Made by a program: the position numbers and the translations under genes
Assembly (NCBI GenBank): GCA_012728895.1
Contig: JAAYEG010000019.1
Location: forward strand, 1 to 36,452
DNA length: 36,452 nucleotides
Reading direction: 5' to 3'
Source: Methanospirillum sp.
GTDB lineage: Archaea; Halobacteriota; Methanomicrobia; Methanomicrobiales; Methanospirillaceae
The notes under the pieces: model-generated
What the model was told of the DNA's origin: nothing
Databases searched by the model: none
What the model saw: the letters and a program-made list of their open reading frames with translations, nothing else
In this document: positions 3,337-33,221 of the stretch, piece by piece
Position numbering within the stretch: the first letter of the stretch is position 1
How the letters are laid out: every line of letters starts with the position of its first letter

Positions 3337-3834
3337 GCCGGTCGTGTCGAGGTGTTCCGGTGCTGAGGCAGACCGCGCCACCGTGAACAGCAGCGCGAGG
3401 GTGGCGGCGCCGAAGATCCACTCCGTGAGGGAGCCGATCTCCGCCATCAGCCCCTCGACGAAGAAGTCCGGGTAATGGCCCGGTACGAACGGTCCGAGGA
3501 ACGGAAAACACCACGCAATCGGGTCGCGCCACATCGCGTCGAGGAGCTGGTGCGAGAGGACGCCGAGCGCTAGAACGAAACCGGCGACCCCTCCGCGCTC
3601 CCGATGCAGGATTGCCCCGGCAGCGAGCAGGACGAACAGGAACAGGAGCGAGTGCCCGACGAGGCGGCCGTTGTCGAGGGTCTGGGTGAGCAGAAGGTGC
3701 CCGAGCGGCTTGTCCAGCAGGTCCGGGAGGAAGCCTCCAGCCAGGCCCGCCCGTCCGAGTCGGCGTTCGTCCATCCGGCCGGAGACTGCGAGACCGATCG
3801 CAGACCCGACGAAGAGGTGGCAGAAGACGAGCAT
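3058..3834 (-). CDS. Membrane-bound metal-dependent hydrolase, YdjM/DUF457-like
   Basis: A 258-residue membrane protein. The N-terminus holds His- and Asp-rich motifs typical of the YdjM/DUF457 family: an early His (CHLFVG), GGFLPDLLDKPLGH, GHSLLF and SHQLLDAMW, suggesting metal binding. Several hydrophobic segments follow, including FLFVLLAAGAIL, IFGAATLALLFTVA, LLAAAVGFMGVLSLAGA and LILATAAVVSSAIVLA. The substrate is unknown for this family. It is the last gene of a three-gene minus-strand operon, seven bases after the M20 peptidase. The final 37 or so residues, after the last membrane segment, are charged and lie inside the helicase 3' end, so that tail may be a by-product of a late stop codon. 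Confidence 0.75.
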   Translation of the reverse strand: MLVFCHLFVGSAIGLAVSGRMDERRLGRAGLAGGFLPDLLDKPLGHLLLTQTLDNGRLVGHSLLFLFVLLAAGAILHRERGGVAGFVLALGVLSHQLLDAMWRDPIAWCFPFLGPFVPGHYPDFFVEGLMAEIGSLTEWIFGAATLALLFTVARSASAPEHLDTTGLSITRLLAAAVGFMGVLSLAGATGILPPLAEISGTGDSLILATAAVVSSAIVLAKMHDGAGREVMQELRQAQLVQDDHTGKERGRHERAEGP

Positions 3835-3841
3835 CCCTGGA

Positions 3842-5011
3842 TCAGGCGTACGCTTCGATCAGTCGCAGGTATACCGCGGTCGCTTCTTCGAGCGCTGGGA
3901 CGGGGACTCGCTCGTCGACGGCGTGGATTCTCGCGAGCTCGCCGGGGCCGTACTCGACCGTGGGGAAGCCGGCGAGTCGGAGGGCACGGGCATCCGAGGC
4001 GGCCCACTGGACGATCGGGGTTGCCGGTGCACCCCTGACGGCCTGGATGGCTTCCGAGATCCTGCCGACGATCCGTGCACCGGGCGGCGTCCAGCTCGGG
4101 GACGAGCTGCTCAGGCATCTCATGGTCGCGCGAGGGGCACGGGCGGCGAGCTTCCGCGCGAGCACGACGGGGTCGCAGCCCCACGGGAGCCGGAGGTCTA
4201 ACTCGAGGTCACAGTGCTCGGCCACGATGTTCGCTTTCTCCCCCCCGTCGATCCGTCCCGGGTTGAAACTGATCCGGCGCAGGATTGGCCCCGCTCCCGG
4301 AAGATCGAGAGCGGTCTCCAGTACCCGTTCGGAATCCGAGATCACTCTTGCGAGGTCGGGCCCGGGGTCGAAGACCCGCTCGTGGAGCTCCCTGACATAC
4401 TCGATGAGCGCGACCGCGTCCATCACGGACGACACTCCACGGACCGGGTAGAGCGAGGCGTGCCCGGGTTCTCCAACGAATTTAAAAAGGGCACGGAGAA
4501 GTCCCTTCTGGCCGATGCAGGGCGCGCTCTCCGGGGTCGGCTCTGCGATAAGGCAATCGCAGGGGGCGATCAGCCCCCTGTCGAGCAGGTGCCGGACACC
4601 ATCACCGCCGGTCTCCTCGTCGCAGACGAACGCGACACCGATTCGAGAGAGGTCGTGACCATGGGCCACCGCCTCCTCCAACCCCGCGAGCAGCGCGGCG
4701 CACCCCCCCTTCATGTCGGTCGAGCCGCGCCCGAGCACATATCCCTCGCGGATCTCGCCGGCGAACGGGTCGAAGGACCAGGTCTCCCCCAGAGCAGGGA
4801 CCACGTCGAGGTGCCCGCAGAGGAGTAGGTCGGCGTTCGTCCCATTCGCGACCGTGTTCACCCTTTCACTCGTCTCCCCCGCCATCCTTGTCCGGAGACC
4901 GAGCTCATCGAGCCGGTCGCGCACGAACTCGGCGCAGTCGCGTGTGTTCCCGGGTGGATTCTCGGAGCGGATCGCGACCAGCTGGGACGCGAGGCGGGCG
5001 ACGTGGCTCAT
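3842..5011 (-). CDS. M20 family metallopeptidase (ArgE/DapE type)
   Basis: A 389-residue zinc-dependent amidohydrolase of the family containing acetylornithine deacetylase and succinyl-diaminopimelate desuccinylase. Expected metal and catalytic residues are visible: GHLDVVP (H67, D69), STDMKGG (D99), DEETGG (E132 as general base, E133), AEPT (E157) and a C-terminal His in ARIHAVDERV (H363). The conserved GHASLYPVRG stretch begins the dimerisation domain. Length matches the family. The exact substrate cannot be read from sequence; no lysine or arginine pathway gene is adjacent. Its start overlaps the stop of the upstream unknown gene by four bases, so the two are probably co-translated. Confidence 0.88.
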   Translation of the reverse strand: MSHVARLASQLVAIRSENPPGNTRDCAEFVRDRLDELGLRTRMAGETSERVNTVANGTNADLLLCGHLDVVPALGETWSFDPFAGEIREGYVLGRGSTDMKGGCAALLAGLEEAVAHGHDLSRIGVAFVCDEETGGDGVRHLLDRGLIAPCDCLIAEPTPESAPCIGQKGLLRALFKFVGEPGHASLYPVRGVSSVMDAVALIEYVRELHERVFDPGPDLARVISDSERVLETALDLPGAGPILRRISFNPGRIDGGEKANIVAEHCDLELDLRLPWGCDPVVLARKLAARAPRATMRCLSSSSPSWTPPGARIVGRISEAIQAVRGAPATPIVQWAASDARALRLAGFPTVEYGPGELARIHAVDERVPVPALEEATAVYLRLIEAYA

Positions 5012-5520
5012 GCGGTATGACCGGCGCGATACTCCTCGAAGAACCGGGCAAGAGAGCCGGTTTCCTCGTACAGCGACTTCAAGAACTCGTTGTCGAACAG
5101 CTCGTTGATGGCCAGCGTGAAGAACCCGAGCGGTAACGCGGTCGTGCTATCCGGGTCGAGGACGAGCCTGAACGACCGGTACCCGGCGGGATCCTCGTCA
5201 TCGTACACCGCTCTCCAGACCGCTGGCAGGCGCTCGAACCGGTCTGGGTGATTCGCCTTAAGCCAGTTCACGAAACCACGGAAGAGCGGGCGATCTCCTT
5301 TCTTCTCCTCGTCCACCCGCCAGCGGAGGTATTCCATGCTCATGATGTTCTTGGGAGAGGCGTAGTTGTACGACATGAGCCCGAGCGTATAGTCGAGGTG
5401 TGCGCAGGCATCGATGAAAAAAAACTTGAGCACCGGGTGAAAGAGCGCGGTGTCGTGGAGCATCAGGGACTTGCCGTAGAGCGCCTGCAGCCCCCTGCGG
5501 TACTCGTTATTCTCACTCAT
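5008..5520 (-). CDS. Conserved-looking hypothetical protein
   Basis: I do not recognise this 170-residue soluble protein. It has normal composition for a real gene, with alternating hydrophobic and charged segments and many aromatic residues (for example FHPVLKFFFIDACAHLDY and EEYRAGHTA at the end), no signal peptide and no clear motif. It is probably mostly helical. It heads the operon that continues with the M20 peptidase (four-base overlap) and the YdjM-like hydrolase, so it may act with one of them. A TATA-like sequence at 5544-5553 lies about 28 bases before the ATG, consistent with a leaderless or nearly leaderless message. The function is not known. Confidence 0.75.
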   Translation of the reverse strand: MSENNEYRRGLQALYGKSLMLHDTALFHPVLKFFFIDACAHLDYTLGLMSYNYASPKNIMSMEYLRWRVDEEKKGDRPLFRGFVNWLKANHPDRFERLPAVWRAVYDDEDPAGYRSFRLVLDPDSTTALPLGFFTLAINELFDNEFLKSLYEETGSLARFFEEYRAGHTA

Positions 5521-5543
5521 ACGGTCAGCGTGGGAGTGAGGTA

Positions 5544-5560
5544 GTCAAATACCTTGGTAT
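5544..5560 (-). promoter_or_regulatory. TATA-like box with overlapping inverted repeat
   Basis: On the minus strand GGTATTTGAC lies about 28 bases before the ATG at 5520, as expected for an archaeal TATA element. The inverted repeat ATACC-TT-GGTAT (5549-5560) overlaps its upstream side and could bind a regulator. This is inference from position and symmetry alone. Confidence 0.4.
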
Positions 5561-7864
5561 GGGGGATCGTCCCAGGGCGTTCTCTCATCCCTTGAGGGTA
5601 AGTGCGCGTGCCCGGCGCTTTCCGGGACACGATCGGGCAGGTGGAGTCCCTCGTTCTCCTCCCGGTGCGGTTACCAGAACTTGCCGTCATCCATGAAGAC
5701 AATGTGGTGCAGTCCGGGCATCCGGTGTCTTTATCACCGGGTATCCCTGGAAACCCGGACTTAATGATCGCGGGGGCGTCCCCCTGAACACCCGGGTTTT
5801 CTCACACATGGAACGGGTTCCTTCGGTATCCATGGCTTCCTGTGCTTTCAGTCTCCCCTGGCCTTCAGCCGGTATCTGAACGCCTTTACGATCGTCCCCG
5901 GGACGCCTCTGCGCGAATCGGGGGGGCTGATGAAGGGTGTCAGCACTGCGCGATACCGGGTATCCCGGACGCGTCCATCCCCCGATCGCGATAAGCACGT
6001 GCACCGGGACTGGGGTGTCGTGCGATCACGGGGTACGGCCGCTCCGCGTGAGCCCGTGTCTGGCCGATCGCCCGGTTCCGACGTTTCTCCCTGATTGAGG
6101 GTTGATGTCACGGATCGCCCGGTACATCGTCCCGTTTACCGATCCCACTGGCTTCATGCCGTATCACATCCTGTCCCGCAGAATGTCTCTCCCTGCCCAT
6201 AGCTCGAGACGACGGTCACGCAGCGACGCAGTCGACATATCCAGCCGGCAGATCGGCGGGAACTTCCGGTTTACGAGACCCTCTCTCGTCAACGCTCACC
6301 GCCGACTGCGATGGCCGACCACGTGAATGATCAGCACCCGAACGTGCTCACCGGGAAAGATCGACCGAAGAGGGGGATGAGGATGGTCCGGTCTATTCGT
6401 AATTCCGGGGGTGTCCGATCGTTCGGACGCGTGTGTAGCACTGAATTCATATTCACGCGACCGCCTGTCCTGGAACCTGGCGATCCGCCACTGGGGGGAT
6501 CGACCAACAGAGAAAGGTTCGTGCTCTGTATCTTCCGGAACGGCTTTGAGTTCATTCTGACGGTCGACTGTTCCGTCCGTGGTCACGCTGTCCGCGATCG
6601 AGAGGTAGACCCTCCCGGACGCGCGTTCGATCTTTCGATCTACCCGCGGGTGATCCGGCCCCGCCTCGCCACGCCGAGTGTGAGATCTTCGGGCATCAGG
6701 AGACGCTCCGAAGGCATGGTGCGGGATGGCGTTCCTCGATCTCGAGATGAACAGGGGGCCTTGTCTCTCCAGGATATCGCTCGGGACATCGTTCAGCGAA
6801 AAATCATTCATGGGCATCACTCTGGTCGCCGAAGCCGCCGAGTCAGGGACGGGAACCCGGCATGTCGTGGATCCGGCGACATCGTCCTGGACGGAAGAGC
6901 CGGCGTTACATCGCCGTCGACGGTCAACCGGCTACGCGTGGCCTTGCCGGGGCGTCGGCGCGTCCTTTTTTCTCGATCTGTGCTACCAACGTTCGTGGTT
7001 CTCTGCGTTATTTTGCGCGCCGGGCCTGCGACCGTGCAGGGGGGGGTCGAGCGGCACCGAACCGGGTTTTCACGCCCTGCGGGTGGCGATGCACAGGGAG
7101 ACCCGGCGATCGACCCGGGACGGGACCACCGGGTTTCGAGGTGGGGTCACGACGGTCGGACGTGACGCTGCAGGATCTACGGGGCGTGAACCCCGGGGCA
7201 ACGGGGACCAGGCTGGCCTGCCCGGGTCCAGATCCCCTGGCGAGCGGCGATGGCAATCACCCCCCGCTGTTCCCCCCGGGGAGATATCCCCGGACCGCTG
7301 CCTGCCAGAGAATGCACGCATCCTGACTTGCAGGGTGACTCGTGGGGATGAGATCCTGCAGATCTTCTCTCTTCGCCCGAACCCGTCAGCCGTCGCGACG
7401 GTGCTCGTCTCCCTGCTGTAGGTTGGCGGAATAGAAGGGGCGTGTGCCTCGATCCTCGTGCCCGCCGCACTTCGGGCTTCCTGCCCGCCCACGCTCCCGG
7501 TGCTGCCGGCGGTCGCCGTCCCCTTCCCGTTCATCTCCGCGGATCGGATCCCGCGAGCGGGAATAGATACGGAACATGCGGAAGCAACCCCGCCCGGAGG
7601 TACTATTCGCCCCGCACCTCGTGGTCATGCCGGACTCGACGCTGGTCGAGCCGTTCGATCGGAAACCTCGGTGCGAGTCTGGTGCACTCGGATCATGGCG
7701 GGGATGGCGCGTCCTCGGGCGGCGTCTCTCGCTGCACCCCAGTGCCGGTCCGAACGGCAGTCCCGCTCCCTGGCCCGTCCAGCACTCGTTGCTCGGGCGG
7801 GTGTCCCGGTTCGATCCCTCGGGGATGTATACCGGTTGGATCCGCACCTCCGCGTGCCCGATCG
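5561..7864. other. Long gene-poor stretch of about 2.3 kb
   Basis: No convincing gene was found between the unknown protein promoter and the 3' end of cdc48. Open frames up to 284 codons exist on both strands, but none shows a domain, a good start context or protein-like composition; they are rich in Arg, Pro, Gly and Ser as in other non-coding GC-rich frames here. Small perfect hairpins are visible: CCGGGT/ACCCGG near 5740-5761, GGGGG/CCCCC at 5772-5784 and GTCCGA/TCGGAC at 6412-6427. Base composition is less GC-rich around 6100-6600. I saw no tRNA, 5S rRNA or obvious structured RNA, but a small RNA cannot be excluded by eye. Confidence 0.5.
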
Positions 7865-7870
7865 AAAAAA
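7865..7870 (-). terminator. T-tract terminator of cdc48
   Basis: On the minus strand the cdc48 stop codon TAA is followed immediately by six T residues. Archaeal RNA polymerase terminates at short U-tracts, so this is a plausible terminator touching the stop codon. Confidence 0.5.
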
Positions 7871-10348
7871 TTACTGGTATTCGGGGGGTTGGGCTTCCTT
7901 CGGCAGCCCGCCCTTGAAATGCTGCTGGATCTTCGCGTAGTAGGTCCGGATGTTCTCGTTCATGGTCGGGTGGACCTTCCCGAGCGCGTTGTTGAAGTGT
8001 TCCTCCTTGATCAGCGCCCGGGAGGTCTCCGTCTCCTCGAGCGGTATCCCCGCGCTCCTGGCCAGCTTTGCTGCCTCCATCCTCTCTCTGAGCGCCGACA
8101 TGCCCGCTTCGCGGGCGAGGGCCTCGATGTCCGAGCCGACGAAGCCATCGGTCCGAGCAGCGAGATCGTTCAGGAGCCTGTCGCGAGCCGGATCTTCCGC
8201 CCGCAGGCGCTTCTCGGCGAAGGCATTTCCGAGCTCCCGCCGCCGTTCGTGCAACACCAGCCCGCCCTCCGCTTCGACCGGTATCCCTTTCGCAACCGCG
8301 CGTACCTCGTCGAGTGAGACCGTCCGGTCACCGCCGAGCATCTCGACGAAACGCTCCAGTTCGGCAGCCCCGAAACCCTCGGTCAGCGCCAGCACGTCCT
8401 CCATGACCGAGCCTTCGAGCGGTTTGCCGCGCGTGTGGATCTCAAGGATCTGGCGGCGCCCCTCGAACCCGGGCTCCCCGATGTAGACGAGCCGGTCGAA
8501 ACGGCCGGCGCGGAGCAGGGCCGGGTCGACGATGTCGGGTCGGTTTGTCGCGCCCATCACGACCACATCCTTGAGATCCTCGAGCCCGTCCATCTCGGTC
8601 AGGATCTGGTTGAGCACCGACTCGATCACGTGCGTCCCCGTCTCGGTGCCACGGGACGGCGCGAGGGCGTCCAGCTCGTCGAAGAAGATGATCGAGGGCG
8701 CGACCTGCCGGGCCTTGCGAAAGACCTCTCTCACTGCCCGCTCCGACTCTCCCACCCATTTCGAGAGGAGCTGCGGGCCCCGGATCGGGATGAAGTTGGC
8801 CCCGGACTCCGACGCCGCCGCTTTCGCTATCAGGGTCTTTCCGGTGCCGGGCGGCCCGTACAGGAGGACACCCCGCGGCGACGTGATCCCGAGCTGGTCG
8901 AAGCGTTCGTGGTTGGTCAACGGGTATTCGACCGCCTCACGGACCTCCTCCATCGCCTCGTCGAGGCCCCCGATGTCGGCCCAGGTGACGTGGGAGACCT
9001 CGAGCATCACCTCCCGCATCGCGGACGGTCCCACGTCCCTGAGCGCGTCTCGAAAGTCGCGCGAGTCGACCTGGAGCGACGAGAGCTCCTCCTCGGTCAA
9101 CTCGTCCTTCTCGAGATCAAAGTCGGGGAGCTTCCGCCGCAGTGCACGGATCCCGGCCTCCCTGGCGAGCGCCGCGAGGTCCGCGCCGACGAACCCGAAC
9201 GTCTGCTGGGCGATCCGCTCGAGGTCGACGTCATCGCCGAGCGGCATGGCCCGGGTGTGGATCTTCAGGATCTCGATCCTGTCCCTCTCGCTCGGAACCC
9301 CGATCTCTATCTCTCGGTCGAACCTGCCGGGCCGCCGGAGCGCCGGATCGATCGCGTCGACCCGGTTGGTCGCGCCGATGACAACGACCTCGCCACGCTC
9401 CTCGAGGCCGTCCATCATGGTCAGGAGCTGCGCCACCACGCGCCGCTCCACCTCGCCGGTCACGTCCTCGCGGCGCGGCGCGATCGAATCGAGCTCGTCG
9501 ATAAAGATGATCGCCGGCGCGTTCTCACGGGCTTCCTCGAAGACCTCCCGCAGGCGCTGCTCTGACTCCCCGTAATACTTCGAGATCACCTCGGGCCCTG
9601 CGATGGCGATGAAGTGCGCCCCCGACTCGTTGGCGACGGCTTTCGCGATGAGTGTCTTGCCTGTGCCGGGCGGTCCGTACAGAAGGACGCCTTTCGGCGG
9701 TTCGATCCCGAGCCGCCGGAAGAGCTCGGGGTGCCGTATCGGGAGTTCGATCGTCTCGCGCACCCGCTGGAGCTCGTAGTTGAGACCGCCGATGTCCTCG
9801 TAGGAGATCTGCCTGGCCCCCTCGAATCCCGCTGCCGGCTTGTCCGAGAACTCGATCTCGGTGTTCTTCGAGATGATGACGGCCTCGACGGGCTCGACCT
9901 GGACCGCCTTGAAGTTGACGATCTGCGGCTGCATGAATGGGAACCCCTGGCGGATGGGGACCGAGTCGCCCTCGACCACCGGAAAGTCGATCAGCGAGTT
10001 CGTCGCGTGCTCGAGGTTGATCGGGAGGTTGGACGGGAGATCGACGGGGGGTGCGAGCACCACGCGCCGTGCCTCGATCTCCTCGGCAAGCTTCGCAACC
10101 CGGATGCGGTCCCCTATCGAGACCCCCGCGTTTCCCCTTGTGATGTTGTCGATCCGGATCTTCTCCTGGTTCCAGTCGGAGACCAGAGCCCGCCAGACTT
10201 TTGCCACGGTCCGGCGCTTCCCCTCGATCAGAACGATATCCCCGGGAGAGACCTTCAGCCTGAGCATCGTCTCGGGGTCCAACCTGGCCTTTCCCCCCCC
10301 CTGATCCTCGGGATAGGCGCTGTCCACCTTGAGGTAGATTTCAGGCAT
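7871..10348 (-). CDS. CDC48/VCP-type AAA ATPase (two-ring unfoldase)
   Basis: A hexameric ATP-driven unfoldase that extracts and unfolds proteins, often feeding the proteasome. It has an N-terminal double-psi barrel and CDC48 domain 2 (to about residue 180), then two AAA modules. Numbered from the GTG at 10354, Walker A GPPGTGKT lies at 227-234 and 500-507, Walker B IIFIDELD at 282-289 and IIFFDELD at 555-562; pore loops are KYYG and KWVG. The second module has an extra segment of about 75 residues (about 650-728) between [12 protein letters not shown] and the usual [12 protein letters not shown] lid helix; its start itself looks like a lid helix ([15 protein letters not shown]). I chose the ATG at 10348 because AAGGTG precedes it and the protein then begins MPEIYLKV. 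It is divergent from larC. No C-terminal HbYX motif is seen. Confidence 0.96.
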
Positions 10349-10360
10349 ATGCACCTTACA

Positions 10361-10392: not shown

Positions 10393-11589
10393 ATGCGTAT
10401 CCTCGTGATCGACCCGGTTTCGGGCGCTGCGGGCGACATGCTGGTCGGAGGTCTCCTGGCTGCCGGCGGTGACCGGGAGGCAGTCCGGCGCTCGATGGCG
10501 TCGGTCGTGGCCGACCCCGAGTTCGGGTACGCCGACCGGGCCGGCATCCGGGGAGTCCGGGTCCTGACACGTGCCGGCCCCTCCCGGCGGACACTCGAGG
10601 AGGTGCTCGTCCGTGTCTCCGGGGCCGACGCCCCCGGGGAGGCGATCGCGCTCGCCGTCCGGGTCTTTCGCCGCCTTGCCGCTGCCGAAGCCTCGGTCCA
10701 CGGCGACGACCAGGTGCATTTCCACGAGGTCGGGGCCGACGACGCCATCGCGGACGTCCTCGGCGCCGCGACGGCCCTCCTGTCGCTCGGGGTCGACGGG
10801 ATCGCGGTGATGCCCGTCCCGCTCGGGCCGGGAACGACCGATGCAGCACACGGCGCGTACCCGCTTCCCGCTCCGGCCACGGTGGCACTCCTGGCCGGTA
10901 CCGGGATGGAGGTCCGGTTCGTGCCGGACGCCGATGGAGAACTGGTCACGCCGACCGGTGCCGCCCTCCTGGCCGAGTTCGTCACGACCTCGTGGCGGCA
11001 GCTGGCCCCCTTCACGATCCTCTCCGCGGGGTACGGGGCAGGATCCCGCGACCCCCCGGGCCGTCCGAACGTGCTCAGGGCGCTCGTGGTCGAGACAGCG
11101 CACACACACGGGGATTACGTCGAGGTGCTCGAGACGAACGTCGACGACGTGACCGGCGAGGTCATGGGCAACGCGCTCGCACGGGTGATGGAGGAAGGCG
11201 CACTCGACGCGCAGGCCATCCCGGCGCTGATGAAAAAAGGGAGAATGGGGTACCTGGTGCGGGTTGTCTGCCCGCCGGCCGATGGCCCCGCCCTCGCCCG
11301 GATCCTCGCCGAAGAACTCGGCACGCTGGGCGTCCGATCCGTTCCGTTCGTCCACCGACTGGTAGCGGAGCGGTCGATCGAGCCCATCGAGGTCACCATC
11401 GGTTCCGAGACGCGTCTCATCGACGTGAAGCGGGGACGGATCGCCGGAAGGACCTTCACCAGCAAGCCCGAGTTCGAGCAGTTGAGGGCCTGGGCCGAGG
11501 AGACAGGCCTGCCGCTCCGCGAGGTGGCCCGGGCGGTGGAGCGGGCGATCAGTCTCCGTTCCAGGGGCGGGGGGACCGATGAGCACTGA
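10393..11589 (+). CDS. larC: LarC family protein (nickel-pincer cofactor biosynthesis, formerly DUF111)
   Basis: LarC is the CTP-dependent cyclometallase that inserts nickel into the pincer cofactor of lactate racemase. The 398-residue product begins with the family signature of an N-terminal DPVSGAAGDM and continues with FHEVGADDAIADVLGAA, PLGPGTT, LETNVDDVTGE and PALMKKGRMGYLV, all in the usual order and length. It is one continuous frame, unlike the Lactobacillus plantarum gene, which needs a programmed frameshift. No larA, larB or larE lies in the window, so the cofactor user is unknown; larC-like genes are common in methanogens. The stop overlaps the radB start by 11 bases, indicating one transcript. 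The start is just after a likely TATA box, suggesting a leaderless message. Confidence 0.9.
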   Translation: MRILVIDPVSGAAGDMLVGGLLAAGGDREAVRRSMASVVADPEFGYADRAGIRGVRVLTRAGPSRRTLEEVLVRVSGADAPGEAIALAVRVFRRLAAAEASVHGDDQVHFHEVGADDAIADVLGAATALLSLGVDGIAVMPVPLGPGTTDAAHGAYPLPAPATVALLAGTGMEVRFVPDADGELVTPTGAALLAEFVTTSWRQLAPFTILSAGYGAGSRDPPGRPNVLRALVVETAHTHGDYVEVLETNVDDVTGEVMGNALARVMEEGALDAQAIPALMKKGRMGYLVRVVCPPADGPALARILAEELGTLGVRSVPFVHRLVAERSIEPIEVTIGSETRLIDVKRGRIAGRTFTSKPEFEQLRAWAEETGLPLREVARAVERAISLRSRGGGTDEH

Positions 11590-12247
11590 CTGGCTCTCGA
11601 CCGGGAACGGATCTCTCGACCTGCTTCTGGGCGGCGGATACGAGCACCGCATGATCACGCAGGTCTACGGCGAGGCAGCGACGGGCAAGTCCACGATCTG
11701 TGTCATGGCGACGGTCCAGGCACTCCTGACCGGCAGATCGGTCGTCTACCTCGACTCCGAGGGCTTCTCCTCGGAGCGTTTCCGCCAGATCGCCGGCGAC
11801 AGGGCCGAGATCCTCGTTGACCGTCTCTTCCTGTATGAGCCGCTTGATCTCGCCGAACAGGGGGTGATGATCGGGAACGCCGAGGCGGTGCTCAGGACCC
11901 GCCCGGCGGCCCTGATAGTGGTCGATTCGGCGACCGCCCTCTATCGCCAGGAGGATCTCGACGACAACGAGGCGCTGCGGGTCCTGACGCGACAGATGCT
12001 CCACCTACTGGGGCTCTCCCGCCGCCACGATCTCCCCGTGCTCCTGACGAACCAGGTCTACATGGACCCGGTCAGGGACCGCGTCGTCGGCCTCGGCGGA
12101 ACGGCCCTCGAGCACATCTCGAAGGCCATCGTCCGGCTCGAAAAAATTAACGGGCGGCGGCGGGCCGTGCTGGCCAAGCACCGCTCCCGTCCCGAGGGGG
12201 GACGGTTCGAGTTCGAGATCGTCGAGACCGGGATCCGCGAGGTCTAG
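11579..12247 (+). CDS. radB: DNA repair and recombination protein RadB
   Basis: RadB is a RecA/Rad51-family paralogue restricted to Euryarchaeota that assists RadA in homologous recombination. The 222-residue protein consists of just the ATPase core, as usual for RadB, without the N-terminal helix-hairpin-helix of RadA. Walker A GEAATGKST lies at residues 31-39 and a Walker B strand ALIVVDSATA at about 110; TNQVY and the C-terminal VLAKHRSRPEGG match the family. The ATG overlaps the larC stop region by 11 bases. It ends tail to tail with the MerR gene, the two stop codons overlapping by four bases. A decayed copy of its first 80 bases is found near 15010-15090. Confidence 0.95.
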   Translation: MSTDWLSTGNGSLDLLLGGGYEHRMITQVYGEAATGKSTICVMATVQALLTGRSVVYLDSEGFSSERFRQIAGDRAEILVDRLFLYEPLDLAEQGVMIGNAEAVLRTRPAALIVVDSATALYRQEDLDDNEALRVLTRQMLHLLGLSRRHDLPVLLTNQVYMDPVRDRVVGLGGTALEHISKAIVRLEKINGRRRAVLAKHRSRPEGGRFEFEIVETGIREV

Positions 12248-13080
12248 GCGACCGGGTACTGGACCTCGGTCATCAGCTCCTGCTCGGGGGTCGTGCCGGG
12301 GTCGTTCAGGTAGACCTCGCGGGGGGGCCCGTCGCACTCCAGCCCGAGGGCCTGCACGGCCTTGAAGACCGCTTCGTGGGCCGACGATATCCCCGGGTAC
12401 GGCCCCGTGTAGAGGGCGGAGACGACGCGGGTCGCGGAGAGGGTCCTGAGTTCTAGGGCGGGGTCGTCGACCTCGACGCGCCCCGCGACCGGGAGCGCGA
12501 CCTCGATCTCCGCCTCCTGCTCCCGGCACCCGGTGTCGTGGTAGAGGGTCATGATCGGGCCAGCGACACTGAACGCCGGTTCCCGGCAGTTCCTCGGCGC
12601 GAGCGTTGCGCAGATCTTGCCGATGAGGCGTGTGATCGTCTCGCCGTACGTGCCCGAGCCCCTGCACGAGAGCACGCGCATGGCCGGGATCTCCTTGATG
12701 ACCGGTTCGGTGATCGACATCGTAAAAACCTCCTGGTCGGCCTCGCCACGGGCGAGAGCCGCCTCTATCGCCGCCAGCCGTCCGAGCTCGGCCCGGACCG
12801 CTGTCCGCCGGTCGGTAAAAAGCCTCCGGACGATCTCCCGGTCGCCCACGGCCCGGGCGTCGAGCAGGGCTCCGACCTCGGCGAGCCCGAATCCGAGCGC
12901 GACCAGGTGGCCGATCGTCACACCGCGGCCGATCTGGTCGTAGGTGTAGGAGCGGTACCCGGTGCAGAGGTCTTTATCGGCAGGCACGAGCAGCCCGCGC
13001 TCGTCGTAGAGGCGAAGCGCCCGCTGCGAGAGCCGGGTCACGCGGGAGAAGGTCCCGATCGGGATCCGTTCGACGGTCAT
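12244..13080 (-). CDS. MerR family regulator with GyrI-like effector domain
   Basis: A one-component transcription regulator of the BmrR/TipA type. The N-terminal 70 or so residues form the MerR winged helix (IGTFSRVTRLSQRALRLYDE, then GYRSYTYDQI), followed by a linker helix and, from about residue 122, a GyrI-like small-molecule binding domain ending in VYLNDPGTTPEQELMTEVQYPV, the family's typical terminus. Such proteins sense hydrophobic cations or drugs. GAGGAG about ten bases before the ATG at 13080 supports the start. It lies back to back with a small lipoprotein gene across about 110 bases, which could be a target, though nothing in the sequence proves that. Confidence 0.9.
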   Translation of the reverse strand: MTVERIPIGTFSRVTRLSQRALRLYDERGLLVPADKDLCTGYRSYTYDQIGRGVTIGHLVALGFGLAEVGALLDARAVGDREIVRRLFTDRRTAVRAELGRLAAIEAALARGEADQEVFTMSITEPVIKEIPAMRVLSCRGSGTYGETITRLIGKICATLAPRNCREPAFSVAGPIMTLYHDTGCREQEAEIEVALPVAGRVEVDDPALELRTLSATRVVSALYTGPYPGISSAHEAVFKAVQALGLECDGPPREVYLNDPGTTPEQELMTEVQYPVA

Positions 13081-13157
13081 GGTGGCACTCCTCTCGTTGG
13101 CGCCGCGGGTAGATGAGGGTGCGGAGTCTCACGCGCGTCAGGGCCCGGCGCGACGGG

Positions 13158-13168
13158 CTTCTTATGGG
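13158..13168 (+). promoter_or_regulatory. Weak TATA-like element before the lipoprotein gene
   Basis: CTTCTTATGGG lies about 26 bases before the ATG at 13190, the spacing expected for a leaderless archaeal transcript. The match to the TATA consensus is poor. Confidence 0.3.
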
Positions 13169-13189
13169 AAAACCTCGGTACCGTTACAT

Positions 13190-13600
13190 ATGCGTCTATT
13201 GATCGTCGCCTCCGTACTGGCTATAGCGGTTTTGGCCGCCGGATGCCTGCAGCCCTCACCCCCGGTGGAGCCGACCCCCACGCCGGCCGATACGCGGTTT
13301 GCGTCCGGCGACCTTCTCCACGGCGACCTCGCCGGGGCCGGTTTCGACGACCCGAACGGGACGCCCGCGGAGGCCGCTATCGTGATCCTGGAGTACCAGC
13401 CGCAGTTGGACGAGTACATCTACACGCTCGTGCAACCCGCGGACGGGGGCTGGAGGTACATGTACCCGTCCGGCGACTTCGTGATGCGCATGGCCCGGGA
13501 TCGGTCGACCTTCGAGTCGTACCGGCTTGAGCGGATTGCACATGTCGACATCAGGGCGATAGCAGGTCCCCCGGACACGACCGCTTCCCGGACGTCCTGA
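13190..13600 (+). CDS. Small secreted lipoprotein, unknown function
   Basis: A 136-residue protein with a clear lipoprotein signal: MRLLIVASVLAIAVLAAGC, where the Cys at residue 19 would be lipid-modified after cleavage. A Pro/Thr-rich linker follows (PSPPVEPTPTPAD), then a compact domain of about 90 residues rich in aromatic and acidic residues (YQPQLDEYIYTLV, GGWRYMYPSGDF). I do not recognise the domain. The frame stays open upstream to 13079, but the ATG at 13190 begins directly with the signal peptide and has a TATA-like element at the right distance, so I chose it. Anchored outside the membrane; divergent from the MerR regulator. Confidence 0.7.
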   Translation: MRLLIVASVLAIAVLAAGCLQPSPPVEPTPTPADTRFASGDLLHGDLAGAGFDDPNGTPAEAAIVILEYQPQLDEYIYTLVQPADGGWRYMYPSGDFVMRMARDRSTFESYRLERIAHVDIRAIAGPPDTTASRTS

Positions 13601-13906
13601 GGAGACTCTCATCCCCTGACCGTCTTGACCTCGGTTGTCAACAGGGAGCGGAATCCTCCCTCGCCGCCACGACCCGACTGCGAGGGCCGATTCGGCTGCT
13701 GCCCGGTTCGCCAGCGCTGGGACCTCGAGATCGCATTCCTCGCCGGCAACTCCGCCTTGCCGGGCGTCGTCTCCTGACCGGCCCGTGCGCCGGCCGCTGG
13801 TGGACGATCGCGGCGACAGCGACGGCGACCGTGCACTCCTCGCCGGGCAGTCATCGATCCCGGCGCACACCAACCCCCCGGGGTGGTACCCGTCTCGACA
13901 CCCGCT
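13601..13906. other. Short intergenic stretch, nothing recognised
   Basis: About 300 bases between the convergent ends of the lipoprotein and the RibD-type gene. I see no gene, no T-tract terminator and no repeat in it. Confidence 0.4.
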
Positions 13907-14572
13907 CTACCGGACCGCGCGGTAGGAGAGGAGGACTGTCCCGTCATCGAACGGCTCGACTGCGACCCGCTCGAGAGGTGTCCCCGGGGCGCCGGGGGCG
14001 AGATCGTCGGCGACGAACGACGAGCGCGGGCTCGACCCGCCCGCGAGCCAGGGGCAGACGAGAAGGTGGACCTCGTCCACGAGCCCGGCGCGGAGAAGCG
14101 CCCCGTTCAGCCGCCCGCCCGAGTCGACTCGGATCCGCCGGACACCGTACTCGCGGTGGAGCCGGCCGAGCGCGAGAGCAAGGTCAACACGGTCTGTTCC
14201 GACGATCAGCGGATCCACGTTCCGCGAGGCTAGGTACGTGCGGTGCGCCCCGGGCACGGAGTCCGCGAGGAGCGCGATCCACCCGCGCCAGTACGGCGCC
14301 TCCTGGGAGACCGACCACCGCCGGACGCGCCCGCGGCCGTCCACGACCACGAGCAGGGGGCGCTCGTCGCCGGGAGCGGCCCGCGCCGGGGCCGGCCCCT
14401 CGTCGTACGTGTTCTCGACGCCGCCGTACTTCTCGATCGCCACGACCGACGTCTCCGATCCCACGAGGGTGGCGTCCTCCTTGAACCGCGCTGCGATCCG
14501 GTAGTAATGCTCGAGGTCGACCTCGAACCCGTCGAGCCGTCCATCCAGGCTGACCGAGAGGTAGCAGATCAC
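13907..14572 (-). CDS. RibD C-terminal / dihydrofolate reductase-fold family protein
   Basis: A NAD(P)H-dependent reductase of the RibD C-terminal (RIB7-like) family, whose archaeal members reduce a diaminopyrimidine intermediate in riboflavin and F420 synthesis. Seen features: an N-terminal VICYLSVSLDGRLDG strand and loop, DATLVGSETSV, LLVVVDGRGRV, then IRVDSGGRLNGALLRAGLVDEVHLLVCPWLAGG, the family's closing motif. At 221 residues it is of normal size. The start is uncertain: conserved sequence begins at or a few codons before the GTG at 14572, and the next in-frame GTG is at 14659, which would add 29 low-complexity residues. A TATA-like CCGTTTATCC about 55 bases upstream favours the shorter form. 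Whether it is the true riboflavin enzyme or a paralogue is open. Confidence 0.8.
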   Translation of the reverse strand: MICYLSVSLDGRLDGFEVDLEHYYRIAARFKEDATLVGSETSVVAIEKYGGVENTYDEGPAPARAAPGDERPLLVVVDGRGRVRRWSVSQEAPYWRGWIALLADSVPGAHRTYLASRNVDPLIVGTDRVDLALALGRLHREYGVRRIRVDSGGRLNGALLRAGLVDEVHLLVCPWLAGGSSPRSSFVADDLAPGAPGTPLERVAVEPFDDGTVLLSYRAVR

Positions 14573-14620
14573 GTACGGTCGATCTCGCGTCGTATCCGTG
14601 GTGACCCGATGGAACGGAGC

Positions 14621-14631
14621 CGGGATAAACG
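14621..14631 (-). promoter_or_regulatory. TATA-like element before the RibD-type gene
   Basis: The minus strand reads CCGTTTATCC here. It would place transcription start near 14600, giving a leader of about 28 bases to the GTG at 14572. Confidence 0.35.
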
Positions 14632-14700
14632 GATCGCCACGCCCGGGTGCGGGCTTCACGGGACCACACGCCGACCTCGTGGCAAGATCGTTCCGAACGC

Positions 14701-15090
14701 CTGTCCCCGGACCGGCGGACGGACCGGCTTCGACCGGATCTCCGCCGGAGACTCCCGAACGCCCGGGGTCAGATCCGTTCCGTTCGTTCTTCTCTGCGCC
14801 ACCGGGCGGTCGGTCGCCCCCCGGGGTCGCCGTCGGTCCGAGGGGCGTCCCGCCGACGCGAGGCGGAACTGGGTCGGAGGCAGGATCCTCGGCAGCAGGC
14901 CCGGGTTCGCGGGGAGGCGGGCACCGGGCGAGGGGATCGGCCTGTCGCCCCGGGATGTGGCCCGCGAGTTGGAGCGGGCGATCGGTCCCCGGCCCCGGAA
15001 CCAGGCGCCGACGAGCACTGATGTCTATCGACCGGGAACGTATCTCCCGGCCCGCTCCCGCCGCTGGATTCGGGCACCGCGTGGTCCCAC
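14701..15090 (+). pseudogene. Decayed duplicate of the larC 3' end and radB 5' start
   Basis: This stretch aligns with 11264-11659 (larC C-terminus through the radB P-loop approach), 390 against 396 bases. Shared blocks include GATCCGTTCCGTTCGT (14772 against 11336), GAGCGGGCGATC and TCGACCGGGAACG; translation keeps GVRSVPFV and a relic of the larC C-terminal helix (DVARELERAI against EVARAVERAI). The radB start codon has become ACG, and one base is missing just after it, shifting the frame. The larC frame has small indels. It is therefore a non-functional relic about 3.4 kb from its parent, in the same orientation. It may come from local duplication, or from a foreign larC-radB. Confidence 0.75.
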
Positions 15091-15300
15091 ATCTCCTGAA
15101 GCACGGCTCAGGCCCCGTCGAGAAGAAAGGGGGAGGGGCGCGCCCGTCTCCGATCGCGATGGCCCCCCGCAGGAGCGGACCCCCCGACTGCGCCTCTTCG
15201 GTGCCGATGAACGCGTTCCAGGGGGTTCCTGCAGATACGGTGCAGACAGGCCCCCCCCCACCGGAAAGACAAAACGAACAGGCGTCCTCTTTTTCGGAGA

Positions 15301-16137
15301 ATGATCCCGGAGGACCCGGCACTCGTCTACAACCTGCTGCTCTTTCTCGTGGGCATCGCCGTCGGGATAGCGTCGGGTCTTTTCGGCGTCGGAGGGGGGT
15401 TCCTGATGGTGCCCTCCCAGTTCTGGGCGCTCGGGCTGCTCGGGATCGATCCCGAGACGGCGCTCAGGACGGCGCTCGGAACGAGCCTCGCGGTCGTGCT
15501 GGTAACCGCGGCATCGGGGGCGTGGGCACACCACCGCCGGGGATCCGTCCGCTGGGACGTCGTGACGTGGAGCGCACTCTCCGCGGCGATCTTCTCGTTT
15601 TTCGGCGCCTCGTTCTCGACCCGTATGCCCGGCCGGCCGCTCGAGATCCTCCTGGGGCTGGTCCTGGTGGTGACCGCAATACAGCTCCTGAAGCAGCGGA
15701 CACCCAGGGTGGAGGGTGACGTGGGGATTCTCTCGTCCACCGGGTATTTCGCCATGGGGATCCCGATCGGCCTCCTCTCGGGACTTCTCGGCATCGGGGG
15801 AGGAGTCGTCCTCGTGCCGATCCTGACGATCGTTCTCCGGCACCCGATCCGGGTGGCCGTCGGCACGTCGATGCCGATCATCCTCTGCGCGGCGGCAGGC
15901 GGGGTGATCGGGTACGCTCTCAACGGCCCCGCCGTCATCGCCTCCCTGCCCTGGTCGCTCGGGTACGTCCACCTTCCCGGCGCCCTCGCCCTCGCCGCAG
16001 GGTCCGTTCCGGCGGCGCAGCTGGGTGCCCGGCTCGCCCACGCTCTCCCGCCCCGTCTGCTGAGCGTTGCGCTCGCTCTCCTGATGGTCCTGACAGGGGT
16101 GCTGATGATCGACCTGCCCCGAATCTTCGGGCTATGA
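15301..16137 (+). CDS. TSUP (TauE/SafE) family membrane permease
   Basis: A 278-residue integral membrane protein of the family that moves sulfite, sulfonates or other small organic anions. The family's internal duplication is clear: GIASGLFGVGGGFLMVP near residue 20 is repeated as GLLSGLLGIGGGVVLVP near residue 160. Around eight hydrophobic segments are visible. The ATG at 15301 is preceded by CGGAGA at proper spacing. The gene converges with the aldehyde dehydrogenase, their ends overlapping by six bases. The substrate is unknown; no sulfur-metabolism gene is adjacent. Confidence 0.9.
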   Translation: MIPEDPALVYNLLLFLVGIAVGIASGLFGVGGGFLMVPSQFWALGLLGIDPETALRTALGTSLAVVLVTAASGAWAHHRRGSVRWDVVTWSALSAAIFSFFGASFSTRMPGRPLEILLGLVLVVTAIQLLKQRTPRVEGDVGILSSTGYFAMGIPIGLLSGLLGIGGGVVLVPILTIVLRHPIRVAVGTSMPIILCAAAGGVIGYALNGPAVIASLPWSLGYVHLPGALALAAGSVPAAQLGARLAHALPPRLLSVALALLMVLTGVLMIDLPRIFGL

Positions 16138-21193: not shown

Positions 21194-21871
21194 GTGAAGA
21201 TCGGAGTAATCGGTGGAACAGGAGGACAGGGCCTCGGCATCGCCGTCCGGTTCGCGCAGGCGGGCGAGGACGTGATCATCGGCTCGCGGACGGTCGACAA
21301 GGCCGAAGCCGCAGTGGCGAAGGTCAAAGAACTGCTCCCGGGCGCCACGAACGTCCGGGCCATGGCGAACCCCGACGCGGCGAAAGAGGCCGACGTCCTG
21401 GTACTGACCGTGCCGCTCGCGGCGCAGAAGGAGACGCTCCTCTCGATCAGGGAGGGGGCGAAGGGCAAACCGCTCCTCGACGCGACGGGGCCGCTCGAGT
21501 CGGCCATTGGCGGGTCGGCCACCAAGTGCCTGTACCTGCCCGAGGGCTCGGCGGCGCAGCGGGCGCAGGCGATCCTGCCGGACGCAAAGGTGATCTGTGC
21601 GTTCAACAACATCTCACAATCCTGGTTCATGCTTCTCGACGAACCGATCGACTGCGACTGCCTGATCTGCGGCGATGACAGGGATGCCAAGATCCTGGTG
21701 ACCCCGCTCATCGAGAAGATCCCGGGCCTCCGCGTCATCGACTGCGGCGCGCTCGAGCGCGCGAGCATCATTGAGAAGATCACGCCGCTGCTGATCGGCC
21801 TGAACATCCGGAACAAGTGCCAGTTCGGCGGCATCCGGATCACCGGGCTCGATAAGGGGCGTGTCTGCTAG
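21194..21871 (+). CDS. fno: F420-dependent NADP reductase (8-OH-5-deazaflavin:NADPH oxidoreductase)
   Basis: Transfers hydride between reduced coenzyme F420 and NADP in the cytoplasm, supplying NADPH or, in alcohol-using methanogens, passing electrons from NADPH to F420. The 225-residue protein has the N-terminal Rossmann motif VIGGTGGQGLGIAVRF, an SR pair after strand two (IIGSRT) that fits the NADP 2'-phosphate, LTVPLAAQ, the F420-site region CAFNNISQSWF, and the C-terminal NIRNKCQFGGIRITG typical of the family. The start is GTG, set by AGGTGAAGGG immediately upstream and by the conserved MKIGVIGG beginning. It is followed 39 bases later by an SDR gene in the same transcript. Confidence 0.93.
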   Translation: MKIGVIGGTGGQGLGIAVRFAQAGEDVIIGSRTVDKAEAAVAKVKELLPGATNVRAMANPDAAKEADVLVLTVPLAAQKETLLSIREGAKGKPLLDATGPLESAIGGSATKCLYLPEGSAAQRAQAILPDAKVICAFNNISQSWFMLLDEPIDCDCLICGDDRDAKILVTPLIEKIPGLRVIDCGALERASIIEKITPLLIGLNIRNKCQFGGIRITGLDKGRVC

Positions 21872-26933: not shown

Positions 26934-28661
26934 TCAGGACCGCGAGAATAGCTTCTCGAGCCGCCCGCGCGAGAAGGTCACCACCGTCGGCCGCCCGTGG
27001 GGGCAGGTGAGCGGCGTCTTCGCCGCGAAGAGCTGTCCGATCAGCCGCTCGCCCTGCTCGCACGTGAGCGGGGCCCCGGCCCGGATCGCGCCGTGACAGG
27101 CGACGATCCTGACGAGACGCTCCCGTGCGTCCGGCCCGCTCCCCCCGCCGATCAGCTCGCCCACGATCTCCCGGACCACCGCCGGGTCCACTTCACGGCC
27201 CAGCAAGACCGGGACGGTCCGGACCGCGTACCGGTTCTCGCCGAACTCGTCCACTGCGAAACCGGCAGAGGCCAGCGAATCCCGGTTCTCGTCGACGACG
27301 GTCGCCTCCCGGGCGGTGCACTCGATCACGACGGGGACCAGGAGCTCCTGGACTTCGACCGGTCCGGGGGCCGAGAGCCGGTCGTAGAGCACCCGTTCGT
27401 GGGCCGCGTGCTGGTCGACCAGGACGAGGTCGCCGTTGCCCGTCCGTCCGACCAGGTAGGTGAGCCCGACCTGGCCGATTACCTCGACCTCGCGCCCCCC
27501 TCCAGGCGCCGGTTCCCCCCCGAGCGCGGTCTGCCGGAGCTGCCGCTCGGTCCGACGGCCGTAGGCGAGACCCCTCTCGGCGACGACGGGTGCCGCTGCG
27601 GGTGTGGGATCTCCGGGTGGACGGGGCACCGGCGCGGGGGGACCGTGTGGGGACGGGACCGGACGGAGGACGCCGAGCGCCGAGGCGACGGCTCTCGAGA
27701 CCGCCTCCGCCACCTCGGGCTCGCGGGACAGTCGGACCTGGCGCTTGGCCGGGTGGACGTTGACGTCGACGAGCCCGGTATCGATCTCGAGGGCGATCAC
27801 CGCGACCGGGTGCCGGTCCGACGGGAGCAGGGTCCCGTACCCGGCCCGGACGGCCGCGACGAGCGGCGCGCTCTGTACGATCCGCCCGTTGACCGCGACG
27901 AAGACCTGGTACGGGTTCGGCCGCCTGACCGACGGCGGGGCGACGTACCCCGAGACCCGGCAGAGCGCGCTCTCGCCCTCGACCGGCAGCAGTCCGCCAG
28001 CCAGCTCGGGGCCGAGAAGTGCGGTGACCGCTTCGGAAACCCCGGTGCCGGGGGTCGCGAGCCGGGTTCGGCCGTTGTGTGTGAGCTTGAACGCGACATC
28101 GGGACGGGAGAGCGCGAGCCGCTCGACCGTCCCGGCGACGTGGGCGATCTCGGTCCCGAGCGTCTTCTGGAACTTTCTCCGGGCCGGGGTGTTGTGGAAG
28201 AGCTCTTCGACCTGGACCCTGGTCCCTACCGGAGCGGGGTTTTCATTCTCCTCCAGCACGGCGCCGCCCATCACGACGAGCCGGCTTCCCAGCAGATCCC
28301 GGGGGCGGCGCGAGACGATGGTGAGCCGGGCAACCGCGGCGATCGAGGCGAGGGCCTCGCCCCGGAAGCCCAGGGTCCGGACCGAGGCAAGGTCGTCGAT
28401 CCCCCTGAGCTTCGAGGTGGTGTGGGGGAGGACGGCGATCCGGAGATCCTCCGCCGACATCCCGGAACCGTCGTCGGTCACCCTGATCATTGCGATCGCT
28501 CCGTCTCGCGACCGGATGCCTACATCGATCCGCCCGGCCCCTGCGTCGAGCGCGTTCTCGACCAGCTCCTTCACCACGGATGCCGGCCGTTCGATCACCT
28601 CGCCGGCCGCGATCTTGGTAATCGTAGTCGGGTCCAGCGGTCTGATCGCGGACCCGGTCAT
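26934..28661 (-). CDS. mutL: DNA mismatch repair protein MutL
   Basis: GHL ATPase that links mismatch recognition by MutS to strand incision. The N-terminus holds KIAAGEVIERP and ELVENALDAGA (catalytic E35), DDGSGM and TLGFRGEALASIA. After a Pro-rich linker (about 330-375) comes the C-terminal dimerisation domain with the endonuclease motif DQHAAHERVLYD near residue 413, ACHGAIRAG, and CPHGRP near residue 551. In the endonuclease motif the last metal ligand position, normally Glu, is Asp. At 575 residues it is of ordinary length. Its start overlaps the mutS stop by four bases, so it is translated from the same message. Confidence 0.96.
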   Translation of the reverse strand: MTGSAIRPLDPTTITKIAAGEVIERPASVVKELVENALDAGAGRIDVGIRSRDGAIAMIRVTDDGSGMSAEDLRIAVLPHTTSKLRGIDDLASVRTLGFRGEALASIAAVARLTIVSRRPRDLLGSRLVVMGGAVLEENENPAPVGTRVQVEELFHNTPARRKFQKTLGTEIAHVAGTVERLALSRPDVAFKLTHNGRTRLATPGTGVSEAVTALLGPELAGGLLPVEGESALCRVSGYVAPPSVRRPNPYQVFVAVNGRIVQSAPLVAAVRAGYGTLLPSDRHPVAVIALEIDTGLVDVNVHPAKRQVRLSREPEVAEAVSRAVASALGVLRPVPSPHGPPAPVPRPPGDPTPAAAPVVAERGLAYGRRTERQLRQTALGGEPAPGGGREVEVIGQVGLTYLVGRTGNGDLVLVDQHAAHERVLYDRLSAPGPVEVQELLVPVVIECTAREATVVDENRDSLASAGFAVDEFGENRYAVRTVPVLLGREVDPAVVREIVGELIGGGSGPDARERLVRIVACHGAIRAGAPLTCEQGERLIGQLFAAKTPLTCPHGRPTVVTFSRGRLEKLFSRS

Positions 28662-31298: not shown

Positions 31299-31897
31299 CG
31301 GACCGATCAGGGCGGGCCCGCCTCCCGTGTAGGGAGAATATGGTCGCAGGGAGCGGGGGGGCGTTGTTTCGATGGCGGCGGGTCCGGCCCCGCGCACCAG
31401 AAGAAGGGGGTCCCTGTGCCCGGGGGGCCGACCGCGCGGATCGGGCGGGCCGAGCGGGCGGCGCTCCCGGCTCCTTCGCCACACTTTTCCGCGCTGTTCC
31501 GGACAGTGATGGACCGCCGCTCGCGGGGGCAGCGGCCCTGGGCGCGGGGAAGAGTCAGCCCAGCGGCGTCAACCCGGGAACCGTCGCCGCGTCATCCCCG
31601 CCGGGTGGCAGCGCGACTCCCTCCTCTCACGGCAGGGGGAGGGGTGCGTCCTCGGGGATGTCGCTCGATCCGTCGCCACGGGAGGAATCGATCTCGCTAT
31701 GCACGCCGCTCTCCAGGAAGAAACGTGGTCCGGCGGTCGACCCCCGATGAAGTGCCCGCCCCCGGACTCCCCTGACCTCTGCCTGGTTAGGCCAATTGTG
31801 GTGAGCCGGGAAAATCTCGAGACCCGGGACGGAACGCCAATCCCCCGCCGTCAGGGGCCGTTCGATCGGGGCGGGTTAGACCCCTGTCACCGCCGCT
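31299..31897. other. GC-rich stretch without a recognisable gene
   Basis: About 600 bases between mutS and the short ferredoxin-like gene. I looked for debris of the C-terminal part missing from that gene and found none that I could defend. Confidence 0.4.
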
Positions 31898-32293
31898 CTA
31901 CCCGGTCGTCCCGTCCCCACCCCTGCCGGGATCCTGCGGACCGTGGGGGGGCACCGCGACGCACGCCGCGACCAGGAGATCGAGCGCCTGCCGGTAGAGG
32001 GCCGTCTCGCCGTGGCAGAGGAGGGCCTCGAGGTGCGCCCGTACGATCGGGGCTCCCTGGCAGGTGATCCACCGGACCACACGCTCCTCGTCGTAGGGTT
32101 CCGCCTCCCGCGCCACGATGCGGATCGCCTCGTTGGGGCAGGCGCTGACGCAGGTGCCCGCGCCGTCGCAGAGGTGCTCGCTGATAAGCCGCGATTTCCC
32201 ATCCCGGACCTCGAGCGCACCCACCGGGCAGTCGGGGAGGCAGAGCCCGCAGCCCGTGCACCGGTACTCCTCGATGGATACGATGGGCCTCAT
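31898..32293 (-). CDS. Short ferredoxin-like 4Fe-4S protein, paralogue of its upstream neighbour
   Basis: A 131-residue protein with two ferredoxin motifs. The first is complete (C12, C15, C18, C22 in CTGCGLCLPDCP). The second is CDGAGTCVSACP, in which the usual second Cys is Ala45, leaving C42, C48 and C52. After it comes a helical region (EAEPYDE, then APIVRAHLEALLCHGETALYRQ). Sequence and order match the first 120 residues of the neighbouring gene at 32319-33176, so the two arose by tandem duplication, and this copy lacks the C-terminal half and ends in a Gly/Pro-rich tail. I chose the ATG at 32293 to match the neighbour's N-terminus; a GTG at 32305 is possible. Probably an electron carrier; partner unknown. 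Confidence 0.75.
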   Translation of the reverse strand: MRPIVSIEEYRCTGCGLCLPDCPVGALEVRDGKSRLISEHLCDGAGTCVSACPNEAIRIVAREAEPYDEERVVRWITCQGAPIVRAHLEALLCHGETALYRQALDLLVAACVAVPPHGPQDPGRGGDGTTG

Positions 32294-32318
32294 CACGTCC
32301 CGCACCCCGGAGCATCGT

Positions 32319-33176: not shown

Positions 33177-33221
33177 GTTGTTTCGTCCGTTCTCCTGTAC
33201 CATTCAGGATGGGGCCCCTGC

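Follow-up and report, generated by a model that had tools for sequence, protein, structure and literature searches.

The stretch 14712–15086 of contig C9 is, judged by its alignment and its phylogeny, a gene relic: a decayed duplicate of this genome's own larC–radB junction. It begins at the very base at which similarity to a congener ends, and therefore it is probably the scar of an insertion. We hold with moderate confidence that it was left by an import, in which duplication and foreign insertion were followed by reciprocal loss and rearrangement. Contig C9 (36,452 bases, which we call the window) belongs to one metagenome-assembled genome of the order Methanomicrobiales (80 contigs, 2.28 Mb), and was compared with six congeners (G001–G006). 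The features discussed are listed in Table 1.

Table 1. Features of the window around the larC–radB relic
Feature	Position	Strand	Evidence
IS5-like transposase gene remnant	6015–6376	+	72–90% to repeated elements on C39, C58, C11, C45 and C56
cdc48-type AAA ATPase, native	7871–10354	-	Pfam AAA/CDC48_N; synteny; identity profile
larC (Ni_insertion family), intact, native, source of the relic	10393–11589	+	Pfam PF01969, 370 bits
radB (RecA/Rad51 family), intact, source of the relic	11579–12247	+	Pfam Rad51, 1e-20; 11-base overlap with larC
Foreign segment, G001-like congener: MerR-GyrI regulator (-), lipoprotein-like ORF (+), metallophosphoesterase stub (+), RibD-type reductase (-)	12253–14712		
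Decayed 5' end of a G001-type metallophosphoesterase gene	13603–13853	+	nhmmer E 1.5e-21
RibD-type reductase, intact	13909–14604	-	~230 codons; Pfam RibD_C; congener homology 13909–14604
Joint where G001 similarity (RibD upstream flank) ends and the larC relic begins	14712		G001 alignment
Decayed copy: larC 3' end (through the stop codon) and radB 5' end (~26 codons)	14712–15086	+	72% identity; shuffles; tree
New joint, relic to TSUP upstream region	15087–15258		Synteny against congeners covering the junction
TSUP (TauE/SafE) permease, native	15301–16137	+	Pfam PF01925; outside G001+G002, AU p 0.004 against own+G001

A decayed copy of the larC–radB junction

A blastn comparison of 11000–12000 with 14300–15600 aligns the relic, plus/plus, to 11275–11657 (274 of 383 positions identical, 9 gap positions, 172 bits), a stretch that takes in the final third of larC with its stop codon and some 26 codons at the start of radB. 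The relic is ~375 bases long and sits between two genes, RibD and TSUP. The initial annotation had placed a copy of the junction, in the same order and orientation, at 14701–15090; the alignment bears this out for 14712–15086, while 14701–14711 is part of the RibD side. No further larC or radB similarity was found in 14605–14711 and 15087–15258, and a whole-genome search returned the intact locus and 14712–15086 (E 1.7e-43), with no other copy of the junction.

In this contig, permissive scoring combined with mononucleotide shuffles yields z-scores near 10 that are spurious, and one could therefore suspect chance similarity or an artefact of GC-rich composition. Under a stringent local score, however, the pair 11264–11659/14701–15090 reaches 190, far above shuffled GC-rich DNA (1000 dinucleotide shuffles: mean 22, maximum 40) and above the other 390-base stretches of the contig (n = 339, at most 29). 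With an E value of ~1e-43 in addition, chance is ruled out, and we consider its probability practically nil.

As had been noticed from the letters, the start codon of radB is lost and a base is deleted after it: ATG has become ACG and one base is then missing (CCGATGAGCACTGACTGG in the intact copy, CCGACGAGCACTGA-TGT in the relic). This is one of six deletions of 1–2 bases in 375 bases, which disable the reading frame. In the larC part, the intact copy and the relic differ at 29, 36 and 22% of first, second and third codon positions, which reveals no purifying selection on codon positions; since all three have decayed, the relic is dead, unconstrained DNA. When the changes are polarised with the congeners, the relic has 62 derived changes of its own and the intact copy 16, and the two have 32 in common. 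The earlier proposal that part of the gene-poor DNA here is gene debris thus holds for the relic itself, and also for the metallophosphoesterase stub and the transposase remnant (Table 1).

The relic descends from the recipient's own genes

The relic is 72% identical to the local copy, 61–62% to G002 and G005, 55% to G003 and 54% to G006; larC–radB is missing from the G001 assembly, whose contig stops at 12253. In the maximum likelihood tree of larC/radB the relic branches with the local gene and not with another lineage (100% support; branch lengths of 0.374 for the relic, 0.039 for the intact gene and 0.188 for their common stem). The AU test gives p = 1 for this grouping and p < 0.0005 for each of three alternatives, in which the relic joins G002/G005, joins G003/G006 or branches outside own+G002+G005. 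None of the six congeners has a second larC–radB copy. The grouping with the local copy and the absence from the congeners therefore place the duplication in this lineage, at a time when G002/G005 had already split off. Among the sites that are informative with respect to G002/G005, and along its whole length, the relic sides with the local copy at 51 and with G002/G005 at 20, which shows that it is recipient DNA, not donor DNA.

The initial annotation had left it at a junction "duplicated or acquired twice", and it is the first of these that stands. A second larC–radB obtained from another lineage could be imagined because foreign DNA demonstrably adjoins the relic, but the full support for own+relic and the rejection of the other placements rule out an acquisition from outside; only a donor that had split off very recently would fit, and we find this very improbable.

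A foreign segment that ends where the relic begins

The two larC–radB copies, which are directly oriented, are separated by ~2.45 kb of DNA that resembles G001. MerR is 92–94% identical to G001, RibD with its upstream flank 90%, and the neighbouring native DNA 75–84%; MerR and RibD with its flank are closer to G001 than G001 is to G002 or G005. The trees group these genes with G001, and the AU test gives the native topology p = 2.5e-5 for MerR, 0.009 for RibD and 0.12 for the lipoprotein ORF, which taken alone does not reject a native origin. The flanking loci behave differently: at 3781–5555, at TSUP and at the metallophosphoesterase gene of contig C38 the genome lies outside G001+G002(+G005), with AU p values of 0.001–0.006 against own+G001. 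The identity profile of cdc48 agrees with a native placement, and its tree alone is poorly resolved. As read from these trees and identities, MerR and RibD are of foreign ancestry, and the ~2.45 kb would come from a G001-like donor.

The right edge of this segment is exact to the base. G001 reads ...GAACGCCTGTCCCCGGAC followed by TGCAGG, and the window ...GAACGCCTGTCCCCGGAC followed by CGGCGG; past ...GTCCCCGGAC at 14712, G001 continues toward a gene that we call F, whereas the window continues with larC. The joint is sharp, and the larC side is too decayed for calling microhomology. According to the identity pattern, the left border falls between ~11860 and 12253, within or just behind radB; the G001 contig goes no further than 12253 and so reaches neither this border nor the donor's own larC–radB.

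A direct repeat flanking foreign DNA is what a single crossover of the Campbell type would give in one step, if a circular donor carried larC–radB homology, and duplications of 109–950 bp in E. coli are a precedent (PMC3240628). In that case the relic should partly consist of donor larC–radB. This is not seen in the relic, which matches the local copy over its whole length (the 51 against 20 sites above) and not the G002/G005 side, where G001 belongs; moreover, up to ~11860 the intact copy shows no donor-like identity profile. We therefore regard this route as improbable, and favour a one-sided event over plain Campbell integration because both larC–radB copies are native.

Relics of the partner genes

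In the congeners the gene order is cdc48–larC–radB–MerR–lipoprotein–metallophosphoesterase/TPR–RibD–F. The metallophosphoesterase stub of the window lies directly behind the lipoprotein ORF, as in the congeners; it scores 40.5 bits, versus a maximum of 2.0 in shuffles, and is closest to G001 (68%), with 59% identity to the genome's own intact native copy. The latter is on contig C38, which carries intact native metallophosphoesterase/TPR genes and gene F (L072 8000–9258 and 5363–6702) in the ancestral order. Between metallophosphoesterase and F, in the ancestral slot and strand, C38 also contains a decayed RibD (L072 6927–7486; nhmmer 34.4 bits over profile positions 5–574, E 1.6e-10, at most 2.5 bits in 400 shuffles). 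The stub being of G001 type, the C38 gene of native type and the RibD relic on C38, the survivors are thus the foreign RibD, the native metallophosphoesterase and the first larC–radB. Directly upstream of the native metallophosphoesterase gene, C38 enters a repeated, IS-like sequence which is found in many places in the congeners.

The idea that the entire block was simply duplicated in tandem, C38 being the second half, was rejected on the grounds that the metallophosphoesterase of C38 is native-type and the stub of the window G001-type. As for timing, the change of the intact larC since the duplication (0.039) is of the same order as RibD's own branch from G001 (0.058). The branch lengths of the relics are ~1.1 for the RibD of C38, 0.59 for the foreign metallophosphoesterase stub and 0.37 for larC; the first two have thus diverged further than the third, and the three need not have begun to decay together.

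Regarding annotation, a 471-residue ORF on the minus strand (13907–15322) runs antisense through the larC–radB relic, and RibD_C matches only its residues 249–438. It follows that automatic annotation could add a spurious N-terminus of ~240 residues to RibD, and the case is a warning to annotators of false N-termini where a relic is read through.

Altered synteny around the relic

The start of TSUP adjoins the 3' end of cdc48 in G001, G002, G003 and G006. In the window the block from cdc48 to the relic is inverted relative to TSUP, so that the relic sits at the new joint, and cdc48 and TSUP are now apart. The other end of the moved block, 5521–7870, is gene-poor and holds the IS5-like remnant, of which longer copies exist on C39 and elsewhere in the genome; its name comes from reading the ORFs of L042, not from a profile. 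Remnants of the native radB 3' end, MerR or lipoprotein gene, which the inversion model predicts, were not detected in 5501–7870.

The position of the relic at the joint between the inverted block and TSUP might suggest that it was made by the inversion itself, staggered breaks leaving the block with duplicated break-point DNA on either end. Duplicates of this kind run in opposite orientations, however, while the relic has the same orientation as its source, which lies within the block, and this makes such an origin hardly credible.

A proposed history

Additive integration can leave a direct repeat of recipient DNA beyond an insert if homology guides one end and the other makes an illegitimate joint upstream of the anchor; entry of a circular molecule by single crossover has the same outcome. 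We propose that, in a first step, G001-like DNA with the MerR, lipoprotein, metallophosphoesterase and RibD genes entered behind radB by recombination at one end, while its far end, at base 14712, would have been attached illegitimately within larC, which would have repeated the recipient's larC 3' end and radB beyond the insert. In a second step, each of the doubled genes would have been kept once: the first larC–radB was presumably retained while the second decayed; the foreign RibD would have been kept and the native one, now on C38, would have decayed, and the reverse would hold for metallophosphoesterase; the foreign MerR and lipoprotein genes may have been retained and their native counterparts lost. 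In a third step, a rearrangement with ends inside the second radB and beside TSUP would have inverted the block relative to TSUP and split off the native remainder, which today follows an insertion sequence on C38.

What we infer is that duplication and import coincided in a single event, by which route recombination took place, and in which order the second and third steps came; the relic with its ancestry and lost constraint, the foreign ancestry of MerR and RibD, the base-exact joint, the two further relics and the altered synteny are shown by the data. Against a single event stands the native character of both copies, for which one must invoke a one-sided event with a sister chromosome, conversion at a later time, or two distinct events. 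The existence and the ancestry of the relic have good support, the mechanism moderate support.

The main rival dissociates the two events: a tandem duplication of native DNA from mid-larC to just past RibD would have been followed by random loss of one copy of each gene and, later and independently, by the replacement of MerR–RibD with G001-like DNA through ordinary homologous recombination. Tandem duplications are common, and this scenario agrees with the direct orientation, with two native larC–radB copies and with the ancestral order of the native metallophosphoesterase, RibD relic and F on C38. It nevertheless demands that the foreign edge fall by chance exactly on the duplication joint, base 14712, which is why we consider it unlikely, albeit the most serious of the alternatives.

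If the import reading is right, the window holds a legible fossil of gene import in an archaeon, in which a duplicated scrap of the recipient abuts foreign DNA at a single base, with relics of the lost partner genes surviving on either side. Such scraps could mark gene-replacing imports between close relatives, which ordinary screens for horizontal transfer miss.

Relics that change toward GC

In the larC–radB relic, polarised changes from A/T to G/C affect 29 of 63 sites and changes from G/C to A/T 21 of 158 (Fisher p = 6e-7), corresponding to an equilibrium GC of 0.78 (bootstrap 0.69–0.86). The equilibrium is 0.71–0.72 for the metallophosphoesterase stub and 0.69 for the RibD relic, whose alignment is less reliable. 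The three relics span 0.69–0.79, which is near or above the GC content of the window (~0.68) and comes toward the GC3 of its genes (0.84). The same count on the functional stretch 3781–5555 gives 0.21, a value which is not comparable to those of the relics because it is distorted by constraint. The gene-poor stretch 5521–6390 has a GC content of only 61.5%, but it holds transposase remnants.

A bias of bacterial mutation toward AT has been reported (PMC2936535), and for Halobacterium salinarum the equilibrium predicted from mutation accumulation is ~20% GC (PMC9997560). On the base changes of three short relics, dead DNA in this high-GC methanogen genus may evolve to GC rather than AT, a proposition that we find evenly balanced between true and false. 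If true, a bias in mutation or in gene conversion would keep GC high, and selection on coding sequence would not be needed. As neutral DNA of a GC-rich anaerobe, the relics run in the direction opposite to the usual AT-ward decay of pseudogenes.

Other observations on the contig

An apparent repeat, 13605–13905 versus 27614–27915, proved to be an artefact of permissive scoring. The repeat 31981–32275/32861–33155 lies in neighbouring minus-strand ORFs and is unrelated to the larC–radB relic; these adjacent ORFs, 31887–32315 and 32319–33203, are 71% alike over ~300 bases, the longer one having 4Fe–4S domains and the shorter one, which has no Pfam match, being possibly truncated or decaying. The ends of the contig (1–126 and 36326–36451) are inverted copies of a repeat (81%) that has many copies in G001 (87–89%), probably a mobile element where the assembly broke. 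The gene at 21194–21871, similar to F420-dependent NADP oxidoreductase, is 88–91% identical to several places in G001, whose contigs carry several copies, and 80–86% to other congeners. Last, the larC of G005 (L037 6168–6174) lacks ~115 bases beside an N, which is probably an assembly gap.

Comparison with known systems

In tandem duplication with random loss, as known from the gene order of mitochondria, each gene survives once and remnants of the other copy stay. Survival in one copy with remnants of the other is alike here, with the difference that the second set is partly foreign.

The homology-facilitated illegitimate recombination (HFIR) and single-crossover integrations of Streptococcus pneumoniae, Acinetobacter baylyi, Pseudomonas stutzeri and Escherichia coli (PMC3240628) have one homologous and one illegitimate end, as we propose here; the criterion that we used for HFIR is an illegitimate junction with 3–10 bp of microhomology. 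In a screen of one-sided plasmid integration in E. coli, the recipient locus was duplicated beside the insert in 56 of 60 clones, and the 14 duplicates that were sequenced measured 109–950 bp (PMC3240628), a range that includes the ~375 bp of our relic. The explanation offered for them is that a recircularised molecule entered by single crossover (PMC3240628), in which case part of the duplicate should be donor-type, whereas both copies look native here. The present case further differs in that it concerns an archaeon, and an evolutionary fossil rather than a selected clone. HFIR proper usually comes with a deletion in the recipient, and none is seen at the 14712 joint itself.

The type VI secretion effector modules of Vibrio cholerae (PMC5361080) offer another parallel: an incoming module pushes resident DNA downstream, where orphan immunity genes persist as remnants, and likewise here resident DNA persists downstream. 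Contrary to those modules, the genes imported here are metabolic and regulatory and bring no obvious advantage, and the remnant is a duplicate, not the displaced original.
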